9,190 nt of DNA from Candidatus Poribacteria bacterium (GTDB lineage Bacteria > Poribacteria > DTPJ01 > WJIO01), in NCBI GenBank assembly GCA_014730235.1, contig WJIO01000129.1, positions 1 through 9,190 on the forward strand. Direction: 5' to 3'. The number at the start of each line of letters is the position of its first letter. Positions within the stretch are counted from its first letter, which is position 1. Below are positions 1,736-9,187 of the stretch, piece by piece. A program made the position numbers and the translations under genes. The notes beneath the pieces are model-generated. The model was not told where the DNA came from. It saw nothing but the letters and a program-made list of their open reading frames with translations, and did not search any database.

Positions 1736-1741
1736 TTGATT

Positions 1742-3703
1742 ATGCAAAACAGTTCTGAAGTCCGTTCAGGATTTACTTTTCGCGCTCTTCTTATAGCTTT
1801 TGCCTCAATAGTTATAATAAGTTATTGGACTCAACATAGCGAACTGGTTATAGACAGCCCGAGTTTCAACAGTATTCATCCGTCCATAGCAGCTTTTTTC
1901 ACTGTTATCTGTATATGCCTGTTTATAAATCCTTTGTTGACCCGGATACATCCCCGTATTTCCCTTACTCAGCCGGAATTACTGCTCATATATTCCATGT
2001 TAATCGTTGCCGGCCCTATAGTTTCTATCGGTGGAGTGCATTTTCTGATACCAACGCTTATAGCCCCGTTTTATTTCGCTACACCGGAAAACGAATATAA
2101 ACTGCTCTTTCACAAATATATACCCGATTGGTTCGGCCCAAAAGATCCCAGGGCCATCAAATTTTTTTATGAAGGTTCGCCTGATGGTACAGTTCCCTGG
2201 ATGCTTTGGATTAAGCCACTGCTGATATGGGCAGCGTTTTTGCTGGCTGTATATTTTGTATTTTTATGTATGAACGCCATAATCCGAAAGCAATGGGCGG
2301 ATATGGAAAAACTTACCTTTCCCCTGGTGCATCTGCCGCTGGAAATGACAAAAGAACCGGGGAAAGGTCGAATATTCAATGATTTTTTCAAAAACCATGT
2401 TATGTGGATCGGATTTCTTGTGCCGGTAATTATACATGGGCTTAACGGTACACATAACTATTTCCCGAATGTTCCTGACATTCGTTTCAGATACATAAGC
2501 ATCAGCCGGTATTTCACAGAAAAGCCCTGGAACGCTATGGGAAATACATATATATCCCTCTATCCATGTGCTATAGGTTTTGCTTATTTGTTGACACTGG
2601 ATGTATCCTTTAGCTGTGGTTTCTTTTACATATTCTCAAGGATGGAGAATATATTCGGGGCAATGGTCAATTGGGGAGATCGCAGTAGTTCCAGCCTCGG
2701 TCAGTTTCCTTTCATACAGAACCAGGGTGCGGGAGCATTTTTGATGATAACAATGATAGGCATATGGACAGGCAGAAGGCATATATGGGATGTATTAAGG
2801 AGTACATTCTCAGATAAATCAGGCATTGATGACTCTATGGAGCCATTATCATACAGGTTTGCGGTTATCGGCCTTATACTTGGTTTGACTTTTCTTTTAG
2901 GCTGTTGTGTCTGGGCGGGTATGGATATAGTTCCTGCGGCTATTTTCTTTCTGCTGTTCTGTATGCTTTCCATAGCCTTAACTCGATTAAGGGTTCAAGC
3001 CGGTCTGGGATGCGTTCACGGTCCTCTTACTCCACAAGATATGATGGTTTTAGGCGCAGGTTCAGTTCGTTTAGGAGCCGGAAATCTTACTATATTATCT
3101 CATTTTCATTTCATGACTGAAGAGATGAGGGGAGTAATATCCATAATGCCAAGTCAGCTAGAGGGCTTCAGAATTTCCGAATCAGCCCGAATAAAGGCAA
3201 AACAACTGGCTGTGGCCATTATGATTGGAATTGCCATTGCCATACCCTTTGGTTATCATGCCGCCCTGCGCAAGATATACCAGTTAGGGGGGAACCTGCT
3301 GAATAACTGGCGAATTCACAGCATGCCCAGACAGCCTTTCAGAACTCTTGGAACTATGCTCAGAAATCCGCGACCTACTGATTGGGTTGGCCTTCAATTT
3401 ATCGGCGTTGGCTCTATATTTACTTTATTTCTGGCTGTGATGCGTATGCGTTTTGTATGGTGGCCTTTTCATCCTATAGGGTATGCCGTAGCTTTTACCG
3501 AAAGAACCATACACTGGATCTGGGCTCCTATGCTCATAGGCTGGGGAGCGAAAACACTGGCACTTAAACACGGTGGGGTTAGGACTTATAGAAAATTTTT
3601 ACCCTTTTTCCTGGGTTTAATACTGGGTGATTTCTTTATGGGAGGATTCTGGGGTGTTATAGGCTTATCCTCGAATTCTCCCGGATACCTTATATTTCCG
3701 TAG
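1742..3703 (+). CDS. Large polytopic inner-membrane protein, DUF6784/DUF6785-like, possibly OPT-related
   Basis: This 653-residue protein has roughly 12-14 hydrophobic segments, around residues 14-30, 48-67, 79-111 (two), 155-180, 219-236, 270-300, 328-343, 373-418 (two), 486-508, 546-583, 590-605 and 618-640. There is no cleavable signal peptide. Conserved-looking signatures are LTQPELLLIYSMLIV near residue 75, MEKLTFPLVHLPLEM near 188, a short re-entrant-like stretch GAGSVRLGAGN, RNPRPTDW near 540, and WWPFHPIGYA near 573. The architecture and the (M/E)EKLTFPL motif recall uncharacterised proteins of the DUF6784/DUF6785 type, which I associate with Planctomycetota- and Poribacteria-like genomes and, more loosely, with oligopeptide transporters (OPT). 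That link is from memory. The role is probably transport of an unknown solute. It is transcribed alone from its own promoter, and no partner gene is adjacent. Confidence 0.7.
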   Translation: MQNSSEVRSGFTFRALLIAFASIVIISYWTQHSELVIDSPSFNSIHPSIAAFFTVICICLFINPLLTRIHPRISLTQPELLLIYSMLIVAGPIVSIGGVHFLIPTLIAPFYFATPENEYKLLFHKYIPDWFGPKDPRAIKFFYEGSPDGTVPWMLWIKPLLIWAAFLLAVYFVFLCMNAIIRKQWADMEKLTFPLVHLPLEMTKEPGKGRIFNDFFKNHVMWIGFLVPVIIHGLNGTHNYFPNVPDIRFRYISISRYFTEKPWNAMGNTYISLYPCAIGFAYLLTLDVSFSCGFFYIFSRMENIFGAMVNWGDRSSSSLGQFPFIQNQGAGAFLMITMIGIWTGRRHIWDVLRSTFSDKSGIDDSMEPLSYRFAVIGLILGLTFLLGCCVWAGMDIVPAAIFFLLFCMLSIALTRLRVQAGLGCVHGPLTPQDMMVLGAGSVRLGAGNLTILSHFHFMTEEMRGVISIMPSQLEGFRISESARIKAKQLAVAIMIGIAIAIPFGYHAALRKIYQLGGNLLNNWRIHSMPRQPFRTLGTMLRNPRPTDWVGLQFIGVGSIFTLFLAVMRMRFVWWPFHPIGYAVAFTERTIHWIWAPMLIGWGAKTLALKHGGVRTYRKFLPFFLGLILGDFFMGGFWGVIGLSSNSPGYLIFP

Positions 3704-3820: not shown

Positions 3821-5125
3821 ATGAAAGTATTATACTTCGACTGCTTCTCTGGAATCAGTGGAGACATGGTTTTAGGTACTCTGGTAGATTTAGGACTGGA
3901 CCCAGAACACCTGAGATCAGAGCTGGCAAAAATCAACCTAGATGGATATGAAATAAGCGTCCAGAAAACAGAGAAGCATAAAATAAGCGCCACGAAAGTC
4001 AACGTTAATCTGGAAGAAGATGAACATCATCACCATCATGAAAATAATCATGATGACAATCATACTCATAACCACAATCATAATCATAACCATAATCACG
4101 AACATACTCATAATCACGCTCATGAGCAACATCATCATGAACCTGAACATCATAGCCGTAATTTAAATGATATTCGGGATTTGATTAATGCCAGTGATCT
4201 GGAAGATAATGTCAAAGAAACAGCTATATCCATTTTTACACGACTTGGGGAAGCTGAAGCCAAAGTCCATGGAACTACCATAGATAAAGTTCATTTCCAT
4301 GAAGTCGGTGCTGTTGATTCCATTGTAGATATCGGGGGCGCTTCGATAGGAATACATGCCCTGGGTATCGAGAAAGTTTATTCATCTCCCCCTTCACTGG
4401 GAAGCGGATTCTCTAAATCATCTCATGGTATTATACCTGTTCCCGTTCCGGCAACGGTTGAACTGCTTAAAGGCAGACCTGTAAGACAAACAGATATTAA
4501 ATTTGAACTCGTTACACCTACAGGAGCAGCTATAATCAGTACTCTTGCTGAGGGTTTTGGCTCTATGCCTGATAATATGATTATAGACAAAGTAGGTTAC
4601 GGCTCAGGAAGCCGGGATTTGGCAGAAAGGCCTAACCTGCTTCGGGGTTTTATGGGTCATATTCAGAGCATTTATGAACATGACATTATAAGTGTAGTGG
4701 AAACCAATATAGATGATATGTCACCACAGATTTATGATATACTTATGGACAAGCTTCTTGGGCTGGGCGCTGTTGATGTATTTATGATACCTATAGTGAT
4801 GAAAAAAAGCCGGCCAGCCGTCAAATTGACAGTCCTTACAGATCAGAAGTATGTTCAGGATATATGCGACTCTATACTAGCAGAAACCACGACAATTGGT
4901 GTGCGTATATATAAAGCAGATCGGAAAAAGCTGGCAAGGGAAATTGTGGATGTAGAAACACCGTATGGGAAAATTAAAGCAAAGCTGGCAAGAATGGGAA
5001 GTAACGTGATAAAAGTTATACCGGAATATGATGACTGTAAAAAAATATCCCAGGATAAAAATGTGCCATTTCTCAGGGTTCAGCAGTCAGTATTAGATTC
5101 CTGGCACAATAAAGAAAGCAATTAA
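3821..5125 (+). CDS. larC: LarC, nickel insertion protein for the nickel-pincer nucleotide cofactor
   Basis: LarC catalyses CTP-dependent nickel insertion into pyridinium-3,5-bisthiocarboxylic acid mononucleotide, the last step in making the cofactor of lactate racemase (LarA) and related racemases/epimerases. The 434-residue cytoplasmic protein shows the family motifs DCFSGISGDM (7-16), HFHEVGAVDSIVDI (158-171), TPTGAA (232-237), GYGSGSRD (259-266), ETNIDDMSPQ (294-303), MKKSRP (327-332) and ETTTIGVR (355-362). Residues 69-111 form a histidine-rich stretch with 22 His, a plausible nickel store. It is one uninterrupted frame, unlike the L. plantarum gene, which needs a programmed frameshift to join LarC1 and LarC2. 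The ATG start matches the conserved N terminus; the RBS (AGGA at 3810-3813, 7 nt away) is modest. No larB, larE or larA lies in view. No clear promoter was found. Confidence 0.95.
   Translation: MKVLYFDCFSGISGDMVLGTLVDLGLDPEHLRSELAKINLDGYEISVQKTEKHKISATKVNVNLEEDEHHHHHENNHDDNHTHNHNHNHNHNHEHTHNHAHEQHHHEPEHHSRNLNDIRDLINASDLEDNVKETAISIFTRLGEAEAKVHGTTIDKVHFHEVGAVDSIVDIGGASIGIHALGIEKVYSSPPSLGSGFSKSSHGIIPVPVPATVELLKGRPVRQTDIKFELVTPTGAAIISTLAEGFGSMPDNMIIDKVGYGSGSRDLAERPNLLRGFMGHIQSIYEHDIISVVETNIDDMSPQIYDILMDKLLGLGAVDVFMIPIVMKKSRPAVKLTVLTDQKYVQDICDSILAETTTIGVRIYKADRKKLAREIVDVETPYGKIKAKLARMGSNVIKVIPEYDDCKKISQDKNVPFLRVQQSVLDSWHNKESN
4025..4153 (+). repeat. CAT/CAC-rich low-complexity tract encoding the LarC histidine-rich region
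   Basis: Irregular hexamers of the CATAAT/CATAAC/CACAAT type encode alternating His-Asn, flanked by His runs. The repeat is imperfect at the DNA level (CAT and CAC, AAT and AAC mixed), so it is not a pure microsatellite, but slippage in whole hexamers would keep frame and vary the His count. Confidence 0.8.
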
Positions 5126-5285: not shown

Positions 5286-5293
5286 GAGGTGAT
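5286..5293 (+). promoter_or_regulatory. Strong Shine-Dalgarno that fixes a TTG start
   Basis: GAGGTGAT is complementary to the usual 3' end of 16S rRNA over eight bases. The TTG at 5299 lies at normal spacing (GGTGA ends at 5292). It supports initiation at a non-AUG codon for the first ABC subunit. Confidence 0.75.
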
Positions 5294-5298
5294 TATTT

Positions 5299-7050
5299 TT
5301 GAAAGGTCTAATAAAGCTATTGGGTTTTATGAAGCCATTTTTATGGATGATTATCCTGGCTGTAATATTTACGGGATGTCTTACCATGATAGGAATGGCG
5401 CAACCGCTTATAATGAGAAGATTAATCAACGACGTGGCTAAGGATGGAAAATGGGGTATTTTTCCCCTGGTTATGTCTTTACTTTTTGCTATACCTATAC
5501 TCCGGGCTCTGGTTAATACGGCCAACAGCCTGACCCTTAAAAGGGTGGGATTGGGTATGATCGCCAGGACGCGGAAACGAATGTATAAACATCTTATGCG
5601 TCTTTCTATGAAATTCTATAATGATACACCTGTCGGGAACATCAACCAGCGACTAATGGGTGATGTGGCCAATATATCAAATGTAACTACCAGCGGCATT
5701 ATCACCCTTCTGGCAGATCTGGTAGCTGTGGTTTTTGCTGTTTCTATTATGCTGCGGCTAAACTGGAGGCTTTCTCTCCTTACTTTCGCGCTCCTGCCTT
5801 TTTATTATCTTAACTTCCTTATATTCTCAAAGCGTATCAAAAACACCAATGCAGTGATCCGAACTCACATGGATCATATTTCATCCATGCTCCAAGAACG
5901 CCTGAGCGCCCACGAACTTATACAGTCCTATGGCCAGGAAAGAAATGAGTCAACCCATTTTTCATCCAGGGCTAAGCAAATTATGGATGCTTCTATTCGT
6001 GGGTCAGCGTATAATATATCTTTCGGTCAGGTTTCGGCCTTTATCAATAAGCTGGGTAATACCCTTATATACAGTGCGGGATGTTATTACTTTGTAAAAG
6101 GTGATATGGGATACGGTGACGTATTGGCTTTTGCAGCGTATTCCACTCAGATACTTGGGCCTGTGGTCAGATTTTCATCCGTGGCTAACCAGATTGTGCA
6201 GGTAGGAGTATCTATAGACAGGATAAACGAAATACTTGACAGAGAACCGGCCATTAAAGAAAAACCCGATGCTGTGCCTATTGAAGAACTCCAGGGTGAT
6301 ATAAAAGTAGATGGATTAACCTTCAGCTATGAGAATGATGAAACAACTCTGGAAAATATTCATCTGGATATACCAGCAGGTACACACCTTGCAGTTTTAG
6401 GAACGGCGGGGGCTGGAAGAACTACACTTGCTATGCTTTTGAGGCGTTTCTATGAACCCAGAGAAGGTAAAATAATGGTGGATGGTAAATCCATTAACCA
6501 GTATAACCTTCATGATTATCGTGAAAATCTGGCAATGGTTCTTCCTGAATCAGCTATATTTGATGGAACTATCCGGGAAAACCTTTGTTACGGTAAACCT
6601 GATGCTTCTGAAGAAATTATGCTCCAGGTATCCAAAGGTGTCGGTCTTCATAGTTTCGTGGAAAAACTGATTCATGGATATGACACCAAATTGGGTACAG
6701 GTGGTTTGAAGTTATCAGCCGGAACTCAACAGAGAATTGGTATAGCCCGGGCGTTGATTTCTCAACCATTTATCCTGATAACCGACGAAGCTACCGGTTC
6801 TCTTGATCCAGAATCTGCCGAGGCCGTTAATAAGGCCATAGATCGGGCTATGGAAGGTAAAACCTACATAATGATCGTTCATCGAGCATTAATGACCAGG
6901 GATGCAGACTCAATTGCTGTTATGGATGAAGGTAAAGTTGTGGAAACAGGAATACATGATGAATTAATCGTAGAACCCGACAGCCTCTACAGGGAAATAT
7001 ACGGAAAGCAATATGGCGAAAAACGTTTGCCAAAGGTAGAGGAGGATTAG
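5299..7050 (+). CDS. ABC exporter half-transporter (TMD-NBD), subunit A, with Walker A Lys to Arg
   Basis: This 583-residue type IV (MsbA/BmrCD-like) exporter subunit has six membrane helices (about 12-34, 53-75, 133-152, 156-176, 244-265, 272-295) and a nucleotide-binding domain from ~335. The A-loop is FSY (Tyr344). Walker A reads GTAGAGRTT (368-376), with Arg374 (codon AGA) in place of the invariant Lys. The Q-loop position is Pro416 (VLPES). The signature is LSAGT (472-476) rather than LSGGQ. Walker B keeps ITDEAT with Glu497, the D-loop is SLD, and the switch His528 is present. The start is TTG with a perfect RBS. The next gene begins 3 nt later and is clearly its heterodimer partner. 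By Walker B and switch residues this is the would-be catalytic subunit. The substrate is unknown; a lipid, drug or peptide exporter are all possible. Confidence 0.93.
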   Translation: MKGLIKLLGFMKPFLWMIILAVIFTGCLTMIGMAQPLIMRRLINDVAKDGKWGIFPLVMSLLFAIPILRALVNTANSLTLKRVGLGMIARTRKRMYKHLMRLSMKFYNDTPVGNINQRLMGDVANISNVTTSGIITLLADLVAVVFAVSIMLRLNWRLSLLTFALLPFYYLNFLIFSKRIKNTNAVIRTHMDHISSMLQERLSAHELIQSYGQERNESTHFSSRAKQIMDASIRGSAYNISFGQVSAFINKLGNTLIYSAGCYYFVKGDMGYGDVLAFAAYSTQILGPVVRFSSVANQIVQVGVSIDRINEILDREPAIKEKPDAVPIEELQGDIKVDGLTFSYENDETTLENIHLDIPAGTHLAVLGTAGAGRTTLAMLLRRFYEPREGKIMVDGKSINQYNLHDYRENLAMVLPESAIFDGTIRENLCYGKPDASEEIMLQVSKGVGLHSFVEKLIHGYDTKLGTGGLKLSAGTQQRIGIARALISQPFILITDEATGSLDPESAEAVNKAIDRAMEGKTYIMIVHRALMTRDADSIAVMDEGKVVETGIHDELIVEPDSLYREIYGKQYGEKRLPKVEED

Positions 7051-7053
7051 GAT

Positions 7054-8913
7054 ATGAATATTATATGGCGACTTATTCAGTCACAGCTTAAACAGCGTAT
7101 TGGATATTTAATAATAGTATTCTTCATAGTTGCTGTTATATCGGCTTCTCCCTATGCTTTTAGCTTTCTGGGGAAATGGTTAGTAGACGAGGTTTTACAG
7201 GTTACCGGCCCTCCAAAGACTAAGGTATCCTCCGAAAGCTCTGAAAACGGGGAATCAGCCGAAGAAAATAAGATTTCTATACAATGGAAAGCAAAGACAA
7301 CTGACGAAAAAATCCGCTTGCTCAAGATATTCTTTATTATCAGTATCAGTATCCATCTTGTTGTTACAGGTCTGAGTGCCTTATCTGAATTAATCAAATC
7401 CCGGATAAATAACCGAATGGTCTATGAACTCAGGACTTCCGTCCACGAAAAAATCGGGTCTATGAATATGGGCTTTTTTGCCCGGGAACAGGTGGGTCAG
7501 TTTATGACCCGTATAATGGATGATGCCGGTGGAATACCGGGTAATCTGACACAACTGGTAATCAATTTCTTTACACAAATTGCCATGCTTATACTGGGCG
7601 CGACTTTACTTTTTAGATTGAATCCAAGGATGGCCCTATTTGCCCTGGCGGCATTGCCGTTTTATGTCTTGATATGTCTGGTATTTCTACCAAGAATAAA
7701 AAAGAATGCCGAAGAACTCCGGATAAGAGGTGCATCTTTTAATGGATTTGTTATCGAGCGACTATCAAATGTGGCAACAATCAAGAACTATGCCCAGGAA
7801 GACCGAGAGTTAAAGGCCTTTAGTAATACCCTTGACGATAACATGAAGCTCAATCGAAAGCAGCAAAACCTTAACCTGGGGTTTGGTACATTAACTACTA
7901 TAGTCACTTCTCTGGGAACACTGGCGGCTTTGTTTTTTGGATTTCTCAATATAAAATCCGGCAAAATGCAGCTTGGACAGGTAATGGCTTTTTACCAGGT
8001 AACGGCTCAATTGTTTGTTCCCATCAGCGCGCTGGTTGGACTGACCACAGTAGTTCAAAATCTTCAGGTTCTGGGCTTTCGGGTGTTCAGCGTTCTGGAT
8101 ACTCCTGCAACTATGGAGGATGCACCGGATGCAGTACAAATAACGGAGTTTAGAGGTGATATTGAATTTGAGGATGTTTCATTGAGATATGAAGAAGAGG
8201 GGCCTTTTGCTGTGGAAGAGATAAAACTTTCCATTCCTGCAGGAACCAGTGCCTGTATAGTAGGGCCAACAGGGTGTGGTAAAAGCACTCTCTTGATACT
8301 TCTATCCAGATTGTATGATCCAACTGAAGGAGTTATAAATATTGATGGTATGGATATAAGAAAAATTCCCATTAAAGACCTGCGCCGGGCTGTTACTCAT
8401 GTGCTTCACGAAACCCAGGTATTTTCCGGAACTATAGGTGAAAATATATCCTACGGCGCTCCGGACGCAAGCTTTACAGATATACAACATGCAGCCCGGG
8501 TCGTCGGACTTCATGACTTTATCCAGAGCCAGGAAAATGGATATAAGACCAAAATTGGGCGCGGTGGAATAAGCCTGGATGCTGATCAGCTTGTTAAGTT
8601 AAATATGGCCAGAGCATTGGTAACGAGGCCATCAATCCTTACTGTAGATGATACTTATTCAGCTATCGAAGAGGATATAGAAAAAGAAATAAGGAAAGCT
8701 ATAAGGGAATTCCTTGTTGAAAAAACAATTCTGATAGCCACATCAAGGCTTTCTATATGTGAGGATGCTGATTTGGTTATAGTGATGCAGGAAGGTAAGG
8801 TTATACAAACCGGTTCACATAAAGAATTGCTGGCATCCCCTGGGCTATATCGAAGAATGTATATGCGCCAGATGGGATTGGAAGAAGCGGAAGTTTCTCT
8901 CAATGATAAATAA
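7054..8913 (+). CDS. ABC exporter half-transporter (TMD-NBD), subunit B, degenerate catalytic residues
   Basis: This 619-residue partner has six membrane helices and a nucleotide-binding domain from ~368. The A-loop Tyr379 is present. Walker A is intact: GPTGCGKST (404-412), Lys410. Other motifs deviate. The Q-loop Gln is His452 (VLHETQVF), the signature is LDADQ (508-512, lacking the Ser and both Gly), the Walker B Glu is Asp533 (TVDDTYSAIE), the D-loop Asp is Glu539, and the switch His is Ser564 (ATSRLS). Asp for Glu and a lost His are typical of the degenerate half of heterodimeric exporters such as TM287/288 and BmrCD; the eroded signature is not. A polar, Ser/Glu-rich loop of ~45 residues (about 48-88) separates TM1 and TM2 on the outer face. 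RBS GGAGG (7041-7045) lies inside the upstream gene 8 nt before ATG, indicating translational coupling. Confidence 0.93.
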   Translation: MNIIWRLIQSQLKQRIGYLIIVFFIVAVISASPYAFSFLGKWLVDEVLQVTGPPKTKVSSESSENGESAEENKISIQWKAKTTDEKIRLLKIFFIISISIHLVVTGLSALSELIKSRINNRMVYELRTSVHEKIGSMNMGFFAREQVGQFMTRIMDDAGGIPGNLTQLVINFFTQIAMLILGATLLFRLNPRMALFALAALPFYVLICLVFLPRIKKNAEELRIRGASFNGFVIERLSNVATIKNYAQEDRELKAFSNTLDDNMKLNRKQQNLNLGFGTLTTIVTSLGTLAALFFGFLNIKSGKMQLGQVMAFYQVTAQLFVPISALVGLTTVVQNLQVLGFRVFSVLDTPATMEDAPDAVQITEFRGDIEFEDVSLRYEEEGPFAVEEIKLSIPAGTSACIVGPTGCGKSTLLILLSRLYDPTEGVINIDGMDIRKIPIKDLRRAVTHVLHETQVFSGTIGENISYGAPDASFTDIQHAARVVGLHDFIQSQENGYKTKIGRGGISLDADQLVKLNMARALVTRPSILTVDDTYSAIEEDIEKEIRKAIREFLVEKTILIATSRLSICEDADLVIVMQEGKVIQTGSHKELLASPGLYRRMYMRQMGLEEAEVSLNDK

Positions 8914-9187
8914 TTACCAAAAAGCAAATAAATTTGACGATATACAGCACAAGTATTTAATACACTGCTGGGGTATACAAAAAGATTATCAACCCATAGC
9001 CATTGAGAAAACCGTTGTAAGTAAAATAGCCAGATATATGCTGGACGAAAGGAATATATACATACCTTCTGATAAATTCGGAATATGGATCGTTCCACCT
9101 TTAGTTATTAATAAGGAAGAGATTGACTTTGTGGTAGAAGCTATTGATGATGCTTTGGATATAGCAGATTCTAAAGTATCAGTATAA
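8903..9187 (+). pseudogene. Internally deleted class III aminotransferase (N-terminal and C-terminal ends fused)
   Basis: This intact 94-codon frame is built from two ends of one enzyme family. Residues 11-36 (FDDIQHKYLIH, then WGIQKDYQPIAIEK) look like the start of PLP-dependent class III aminotransferases. Residues ~41-90 (KIARYMLDERNIYI, then GIWIVPPLVINKEEID and a terminal helix) look like their C terminus. The ~350 residues between, with the PLP-binding lysine, are absent, so no transaminase activity is expected. The junction lies near 9008-9025. The frame is kept, so it may still be translated. The ATG overlaps the last 11 nt of the ABC gene and no good RBS precedes it. The assignment comes from pattern recognition only. 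A genuine small protein or an assembly deletion are the alternatives. Confidence 0.65.

Follow-up and report, generated by a model that had tools for sequence, protein, structure and literature searches.

The window analysed here, 9,190 bases in length, is the whole of one contig (WJIO01000129.1, C48) of a Candidatus Poribacteria genome, and it contains two adjacent plus-strand genes encoding A and B, the subunits of a putative heterodimeric ATP-binding cassette (ABC) exporter in which neither composite ATP site is canonical. An earlier note on this DNA, made from the letters alone, had described both frames as full length, and both are indeed open throughout (5299–7050 and 7054–8913), with no stops across approximately 1200 codons. 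The start codon of B lies 3 nt past the stop codon of A and, because of this short gap and the likely ribosome-binding sites at both starts, A and B are probably co-translated. Just upstream of A, a simple scan for patterns gave neither a terminator nor a promoter better than chance. The genes and their signals are as follows.

5286–5291, + strand: likely ribosome-binding site GAGGTG, 7 nt upstream of the TTG start of A (read from the sequence)
5299–7050, + strand: subunit A, an ABC half-exporter of 583 amino acids with a TTG start, Glu/His-type subunit (Pfam, AlphaFold2, Foldseek)
7040–7045, + strand: likely ribosome-binding site AGGAGG for B, within the end of A (read from the sequence)
7054–8913, + strand: subunit B, an ABC half-exporter of 619 amino acids with an ATG start, Asp-type subunit (Pfam, AlphaFold2, Foldseek)
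7192–7299, + strand: B-specific charged insert modelled with low confidence, residues 47–82, between the first two transmembrane helices (AlphaFold2, alignment)

A and B are type IV (ABCB-like) half-exporters. In each chain Pfam detects an ABC_membrane domain (PF00664) followed by an ABC_tran domain (PF00005), all above the cut-off (156 and 92 bits, respectively, for A; 133 and 74 bits for B). AlphaFold2 models of the single chains, built from a 36-sequence alignment, are confident and complete folds (mean predicted local distance difference test score 89.6 for A and 87.8 for B), each with six long transmembrane helices and a complete nucleotide-binding domain. Foldseek gave TM287/288 as the best match to A (template modelling (TM) score 0.85) and TmrAB together with TM287/288 as the best matches to B; TM scores of the two models against TM287/288 and TmrAB are approximately 0.8–0.85, MsRv1273c/72c is among the top matches, and PCAT1 is also among the closest solved structures. 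At near-invariant positions of the membrane domain the usual residue is kept at 11 of 12 in A and likewise at 11 of 12 in B. The insert in B comprises approximately 35 residues, many of them charged, in the first extracellular loop, and is absent from the eight aligned proteins inspected alongside.

To place the motifs we aligned 199 exporter subunits, drawn from this genome, from others of the phylum and from a public collection of genomes; motif counts refer to the 198 of them, A and B among these, whose motifs could be read. The motifs of A and B are listed here.

6400–6426, + strand: Walker A of A, GTAGAGRTT, in which Arg374 (AGA, 6418–6420) replaces Lys
6544–6546, + strand: Q-loop of A, Pro416 (CCT, in MVLPESA) replacing Gln
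6697–6699, + strand: X-loop of A, Thr467 replacing Glu
6712–6726, + strand: signature of A, LSAGT, residues 472–476, facing the ATP pocket of B (site 2)
6784–6789, + strand: Walker B Asp496 and catalytic Glu497 of A, both kept
6880–6882, + strand: switch His528 of A, kept
8263–8289, + strand: Walker A of B, GPTGCGKST, intact, with Lys410
8407–8409, + strand: Q-loop of B, His452 (CAC) replacing Gln
8560–8562, + strand: X-loop of B, Arg503 (CGC) replacing Glu
8575–8589, + strand: signature of B, LDADQ, residues 508–512, replacing LSGGQ and facing the ATP pocket of A (site 1, normally the catalytic one)
8647–8652, + strand: Walker B Asp532 of B, kept, and Asp533 at the catalytic Glu position, as usual for an Asp-type subunit
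8668–8670, + strand: D-loop of B, Glu539 replacing Asp
8743–8745, + strand: switch position of B, Ser564 replacing His/Gln

All of the residues that the earlier note had picked out in A and B, and their numbering, were reproduced; the X-loop replacements, Thr467 and Arg503, come in addition to those that it named. Neither subunit has lost the A-loop Tyr (Tyr379 in B), the Walker A Gly residues or the Walker B Asp. Misalignment was rejected as a source of the odd residues, every motif being unambiguous in its context, and sequencing error is unlikely given a dozen co-occurring replacements, several of which need two or three nucleotide steps. Of the 198 subunits, A is the only one to have lost the Walker A Lys, and A and B are the only two to have lost the Q-loop Gln; B alone departs from Asp in the D-loop and alone has LDADQ. 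These changes exceed what chance or the variation of the family would give.

In the A–B heterodimer, site 1 would combine the Walker motifs, Glu497 and His528 of A with the signature of B, and is altered by Arg374, Pro416, LDADQ and Arg503. We compared 71 adjacent same-strand pairs, that is, the window pair and 70 others, and counted a composite site as canonical when Lys, Gln, Glu and His occurred together with an intact LSGGQ-type signature on the partner. The 70 comparison pairs come mostly from Clostridia, owing to the search route, and include several other phyla as well as two ordinary heterodimeric pairs from the same genome (on C163 and C264; L113, L114), which have one canonical site each. 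Exactly one canonical site was found in every one of these 70 pairs, in keeping with the expectation that known heterodimers keep one full site, and none was found in A–B. The claim of the earlier note that neither composite site is canonical is thus right, and there is no canonical site in the A–A or B–B combinations either. Sites in an A–A homodimer would carry Arg374, Pro416 and LSAGT, and those in a B–B homodimer Asp533, Ser564 and LDADQ; because both carry altered residues, homodimers cannot rescue a site, and on these residues a site could be restored only by pairing with a different subunit.

The two sites differ in how abnormal they are. Throughout the comparison set (70 of 70) the first gene encodes an Asp-for-Glu subunit with an intact [LIV]SGGQ signature and the second a Glu/His subunit with an LSxG[QE]-type signature; the C163 and C264 pairs likewise have the gene for an Asp/Gln-type subunit first and that for a Glu/His subunit second. 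A, with Glu, His and LSAGT, looks to be of the Glu/His type, and B, with Asp, of the Asp type, for which LSGGQ would be expected; gene order is thus reversed at our locus, with the Asp subunit second here and first in all 70 comparison pairs. Asp533 and a signature changed at its third position (LSAGx) are normal for such heterodimers and not odd by themselves. Site 2, formed by the Walker motifs of B and LSAGT of A, would therefore be approximately an ordinary degenerate site, with His452, Ser564 and Thr476 as extras beyond the usual pattern. Of the two abnormal sites put forward in the earlier note, both are non-canonical as claimed, but site 2 stands near the standard degenerate form whereas site 1 represents the catalytic loss. 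As judged from the alignment, the unusual event is the dismantling of site 1, at the position of the sole catalytic site.

Searches for relatives of the pair returned ordinary exporters. Against 84 same-phylum genomes nothing matched B above approximately 32% identity, a level at which ordinary exporters match equally well, and no orthologue of A was found (best match 34%). A scan of a genome collection of 84,980 species by six exact octapeptides, which is estimated to miss most orthologues below approximately 80% identity, gave only ordinary exporters at 33% identity or less, and no A–B orthologue was found in viral contigs; the genomes searched, in which no A–B orthologue was found, include none of the same genus or family. 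In a quick tree A and B fall outside both subunit clades with weak support, and group weakly together. An approximately unbiased (AU) test rejected neither the placement of A from the Glu-type subunits (p 0.14) nor that of B from the Asp-type subunits (p 0.31). The AU test and the weak tree thus allow the pair to be either a modified TM287/288-type transporter or of independent origin.

We tentatively favour, at close to even chances, the reading that A and B form a heterodimer that binds ATP and hydrolyses it hardly at all. On this reading, A and B would pair as an ABCB-type (type IV) heterodimeric exporter that has lost the usual single catalytic site on top of having the usual degenerate site. 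ATP binding has most likely survived, because the Walker A Gly, A-loop Tyr and Walker B Asp residues are present in both subunits and the Walker A Lys is kept in B. Binding is plausible for the pocket of B (Lys410, Tyr379, Asp532), which would be closed by the near-normal LSAGT of A, and less certain for that of A, with Arg in place of Lys. With ATP bound, the nucleotide-binding domains would close and the membrane domains would switch; hydrolysis and the reset would proceed very slowly or not at all, and the complex would act as a switch, gate or very slow pump driven by ATP binding and not as a cycling exporter. A binding-driven power stroke has a precedent in TmrAB, in which hydrolysis sets off the reset and, as single-turnover work indicates, ATP binding alone drives translocation (PMC7205462). 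As to function, we infer only that the pair may be a channel, a sensor or a slow hydrolyser of ATP. That selection has kept an exporter devoid of its only hydrolytic site, which serves as a gate, sensor or single-stroke device by nothing more than binding and releasing ATP, we consider possible but rather doubtful. Several observations weigh against an ATP-binding heterodimer. The losses at the X-loop and Q-loop in both subunits could equally mean that interdomain coupling is broken, and ATP binding, the level of ATPase activity and the heterodimer itself are all read from sequence and single-chain models. No orthologue was found that would bear on conservation of the odd residues, and a truncated aminotransferase-like frame overlapping the end of B may indicate that genes of this neighbourhood are decaying.

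The main rival explanation, which we regard as unlikely though by no means negligible, is an ongoing loss of function, in which a once ordinary pair under relaxed selection no longer transports and its frames are not yet broken. The nucleotide-binding domains of A and B show acceleration: in conservation they rank last among 62 non-redundant sequences, 3.7–3.9 standard deviations below the mean, and of 66 near-invariant positions 14 are lost in A and 15 in B, where the median loss is 3. Loss of function is further favoured by the aminotransferase remnant that adjoins B and by the occurrence of the pair in a single genome. Divergence alone does not explain the changes, because long-branch relatives (L109, with 14 near-invariant positions lost, and L073, with 9 lost) keep every catalytic motif. 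Against loss of function, conservation in A and B is still approximately two times higher in the nucleotide-binding domains than in the membrane domains, a ratio also seen in relatives; both genes have good start signals, and the frames are free of stops. When neutral change was simulated up to the observed number of near-invariant losses, approximately 6 stops were expected in A and 7.6 in B, and at most 0.5% of runs for each subunit remained stop-free. Loss of function fares better if only the catalytic replacements (2 to 4 in A, 5 to 7 in B) are taken to be neutral, in which case frames stayed open in 21–51% of runs for A and 6–11% for B. Furthermore, 12 of 31 replaced conserved codons, including those for Pro416, Thr467, Thr476, Arg503, Asp509, Val514 and Ser564, lie two or three nucleotide steps away from every codon for the usual residue, on the assumption that ancestral residues equal the family consensus; in the neutral simulation the mean share of such replacements was 1–7%. 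Because so many of them need two or three steps, the replacements probably date back some time and built up while the gene remained translatable. A hand count of catalytic against scaffold losses (11 of approximately 36 versus 18 of approximately 96) gives a weak excess, which we do not use as proof. As for the marks of a pseudogene, a disrupted frame and a neutral pattern of change, we found open frames, and both the simulated stops and the single-step bias are absent. The absence of stops, the neutral simulations and the codon steps agree with the earlier view that simple decay is less likely; simple decay is disfavoured, and present function is not thereby proven.

It is improbable, in our estimation, that A or B pairs with a half-exporter encoded elsewhere whose residues restore a composite site. 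Ten further ABC_membrane subunits, among them single half-exporters on C101 and C178, are encoded in the same genome; the Walker A and Q-loop residues are canonical in all ten, and LSAGT of A could serve the intact pocket of such a partner. The genes for A and B are adjacent, however, with the 3-nt gap described above, and their products group together, if weakly, in the tree. Adjacent pairs of the TM287/288, TmrAB and BmrCD type normally heterodimerise, which also counts against a different partner. Hardly more probable is an active but inefficient exporter, in which either site 1 works slowly through Glu497 and His528 with Arg374 in place of Lys, or site 2 works through Asp533. A does keep Glu497, His528 and the Walker B Asp496. 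In ABCG5/G8, a site with an Arg-containing Walker A and an altered signature persists in a working transporter, according to the relevant passages of a review of degenerate sites (PMC7756269), yet there such changes mark the degenerate site. In addition, the signature Ser and second Gly of B have both become Asp, the Q-loop Gln of A has become Pro, site 2 has neither the catalytic Glu nor the switch His, and no other pair that we examined has such a site as its only one.

An A–B heterodimer would resemble TM287/288, TmrAB, BmrCD and MsRv1273c/72c in half-exporter fold, in size and in being encoded by adjacent genes. Like TM287/288-type heterodimers, it has one Asp-type and one Glu/His-type subunit, the latter with an altered third signature position, and the degenerate site of that type, an Asp-type Walker B facing an altered LSxG, is present in the form of Asp533 of B opposite LSAGT of A. 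TM287/288-type heterodimers keep one consensus site, whereas in A–B Arg has replaced its Lys, Pro its Gln and LDADQ its LSGGQ signature. CFTR (ABCC7) and SUR have ABC exporter folds that serve as an ATP-gated channel or a regulator, and theirs is the type of function that one might guess for a non-cycling pair such as A–B. Unlike A–B, both keep one competent site, and evidence here for a pore or a channel partner is lacking.

Closer in the residues themselves are two degenerate sites described in sections of the same review (PMC7756269). In that of human ABCG5/G8, Arg replaces the Walker A Lys and the signature belonging to this composite site is altered as well, as in site 1 of A–B, and site 1 of yeast Pdr5 has lost the Walker A Lys and has the much altered signature LNVEQ, comparable with LDADQ of B. 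ABCG5/G8 differs in keeping a second, consensus site and in belonging to the ABCG fold class, with its reverse domain order; in A and B the membrane domain precedes the nucleotide-binding domain. Pdr5 differs in that its site 1 has also lost Glu and His and is its sole degenerate site, and in being a fungal full-length transporter of reverse domain order. The transporters described in those sections of the review have one degenerate site, and a literature search of open-licence papers found no exporter with two.

The share of ATP binding versus hydrolysis in the work of ABC exporters is still argued, and a natural heterodimer devoid of a competent hydrolytic site, if A–B is one, would offer a test system ready to hand and would widen the range of degeneration on record from a single site to both sites. 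If the pair is a relic instead, it would illustrate one route by which transporter function is lost, with the catalytic site going first and the fold and frame last.

The host bacterium is represented by an environmental genome only, and the A–B pair has been seen in one genome so far. The assembly comprises 5.5 Mb in 451 contigs and is 91.6% complete and 4.8% contaminated. That the contig is itself a contaminant is unlikely: the best match of its larC gene is in the only same-order genome searched (61%), and its DUF6785 gene matches a same-phylum genome at 62%, among the genomes searched. Downstream of the exporter genes, a 94-amino-acid frame (8903–9187, + strand) overlaps the end of B by 11 nt and lies at the contig end; its residues from approximately 29 to 92 match the C-terminal portion of class III aminotransferases (many NCBIfam models, all weak, best E 8e-5), and it is probably a truncated remnant devoid of the catalytic domain. 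Upstream lie larC, for nickel-pincer cofactor synthesis (3821–5125, + strand), which has a long histidine/asparagine-rich linker whose repeat gives rise to a spurious antisense frame at 3938–4153, and a gene for a xylose-isomerase-like TIM-barrel protein (390–1172, + strand) whose match to the cobamide-remodelling enzyme CbiR is below threshold. Between these two is a gene for a DUF6785/DUF6784 membrane protein (1736–3703, + strand), of a family of unknown function that shows a striking expansion in this genome, with approximately 40 matches versus 7 to 36 in the relatives searched.

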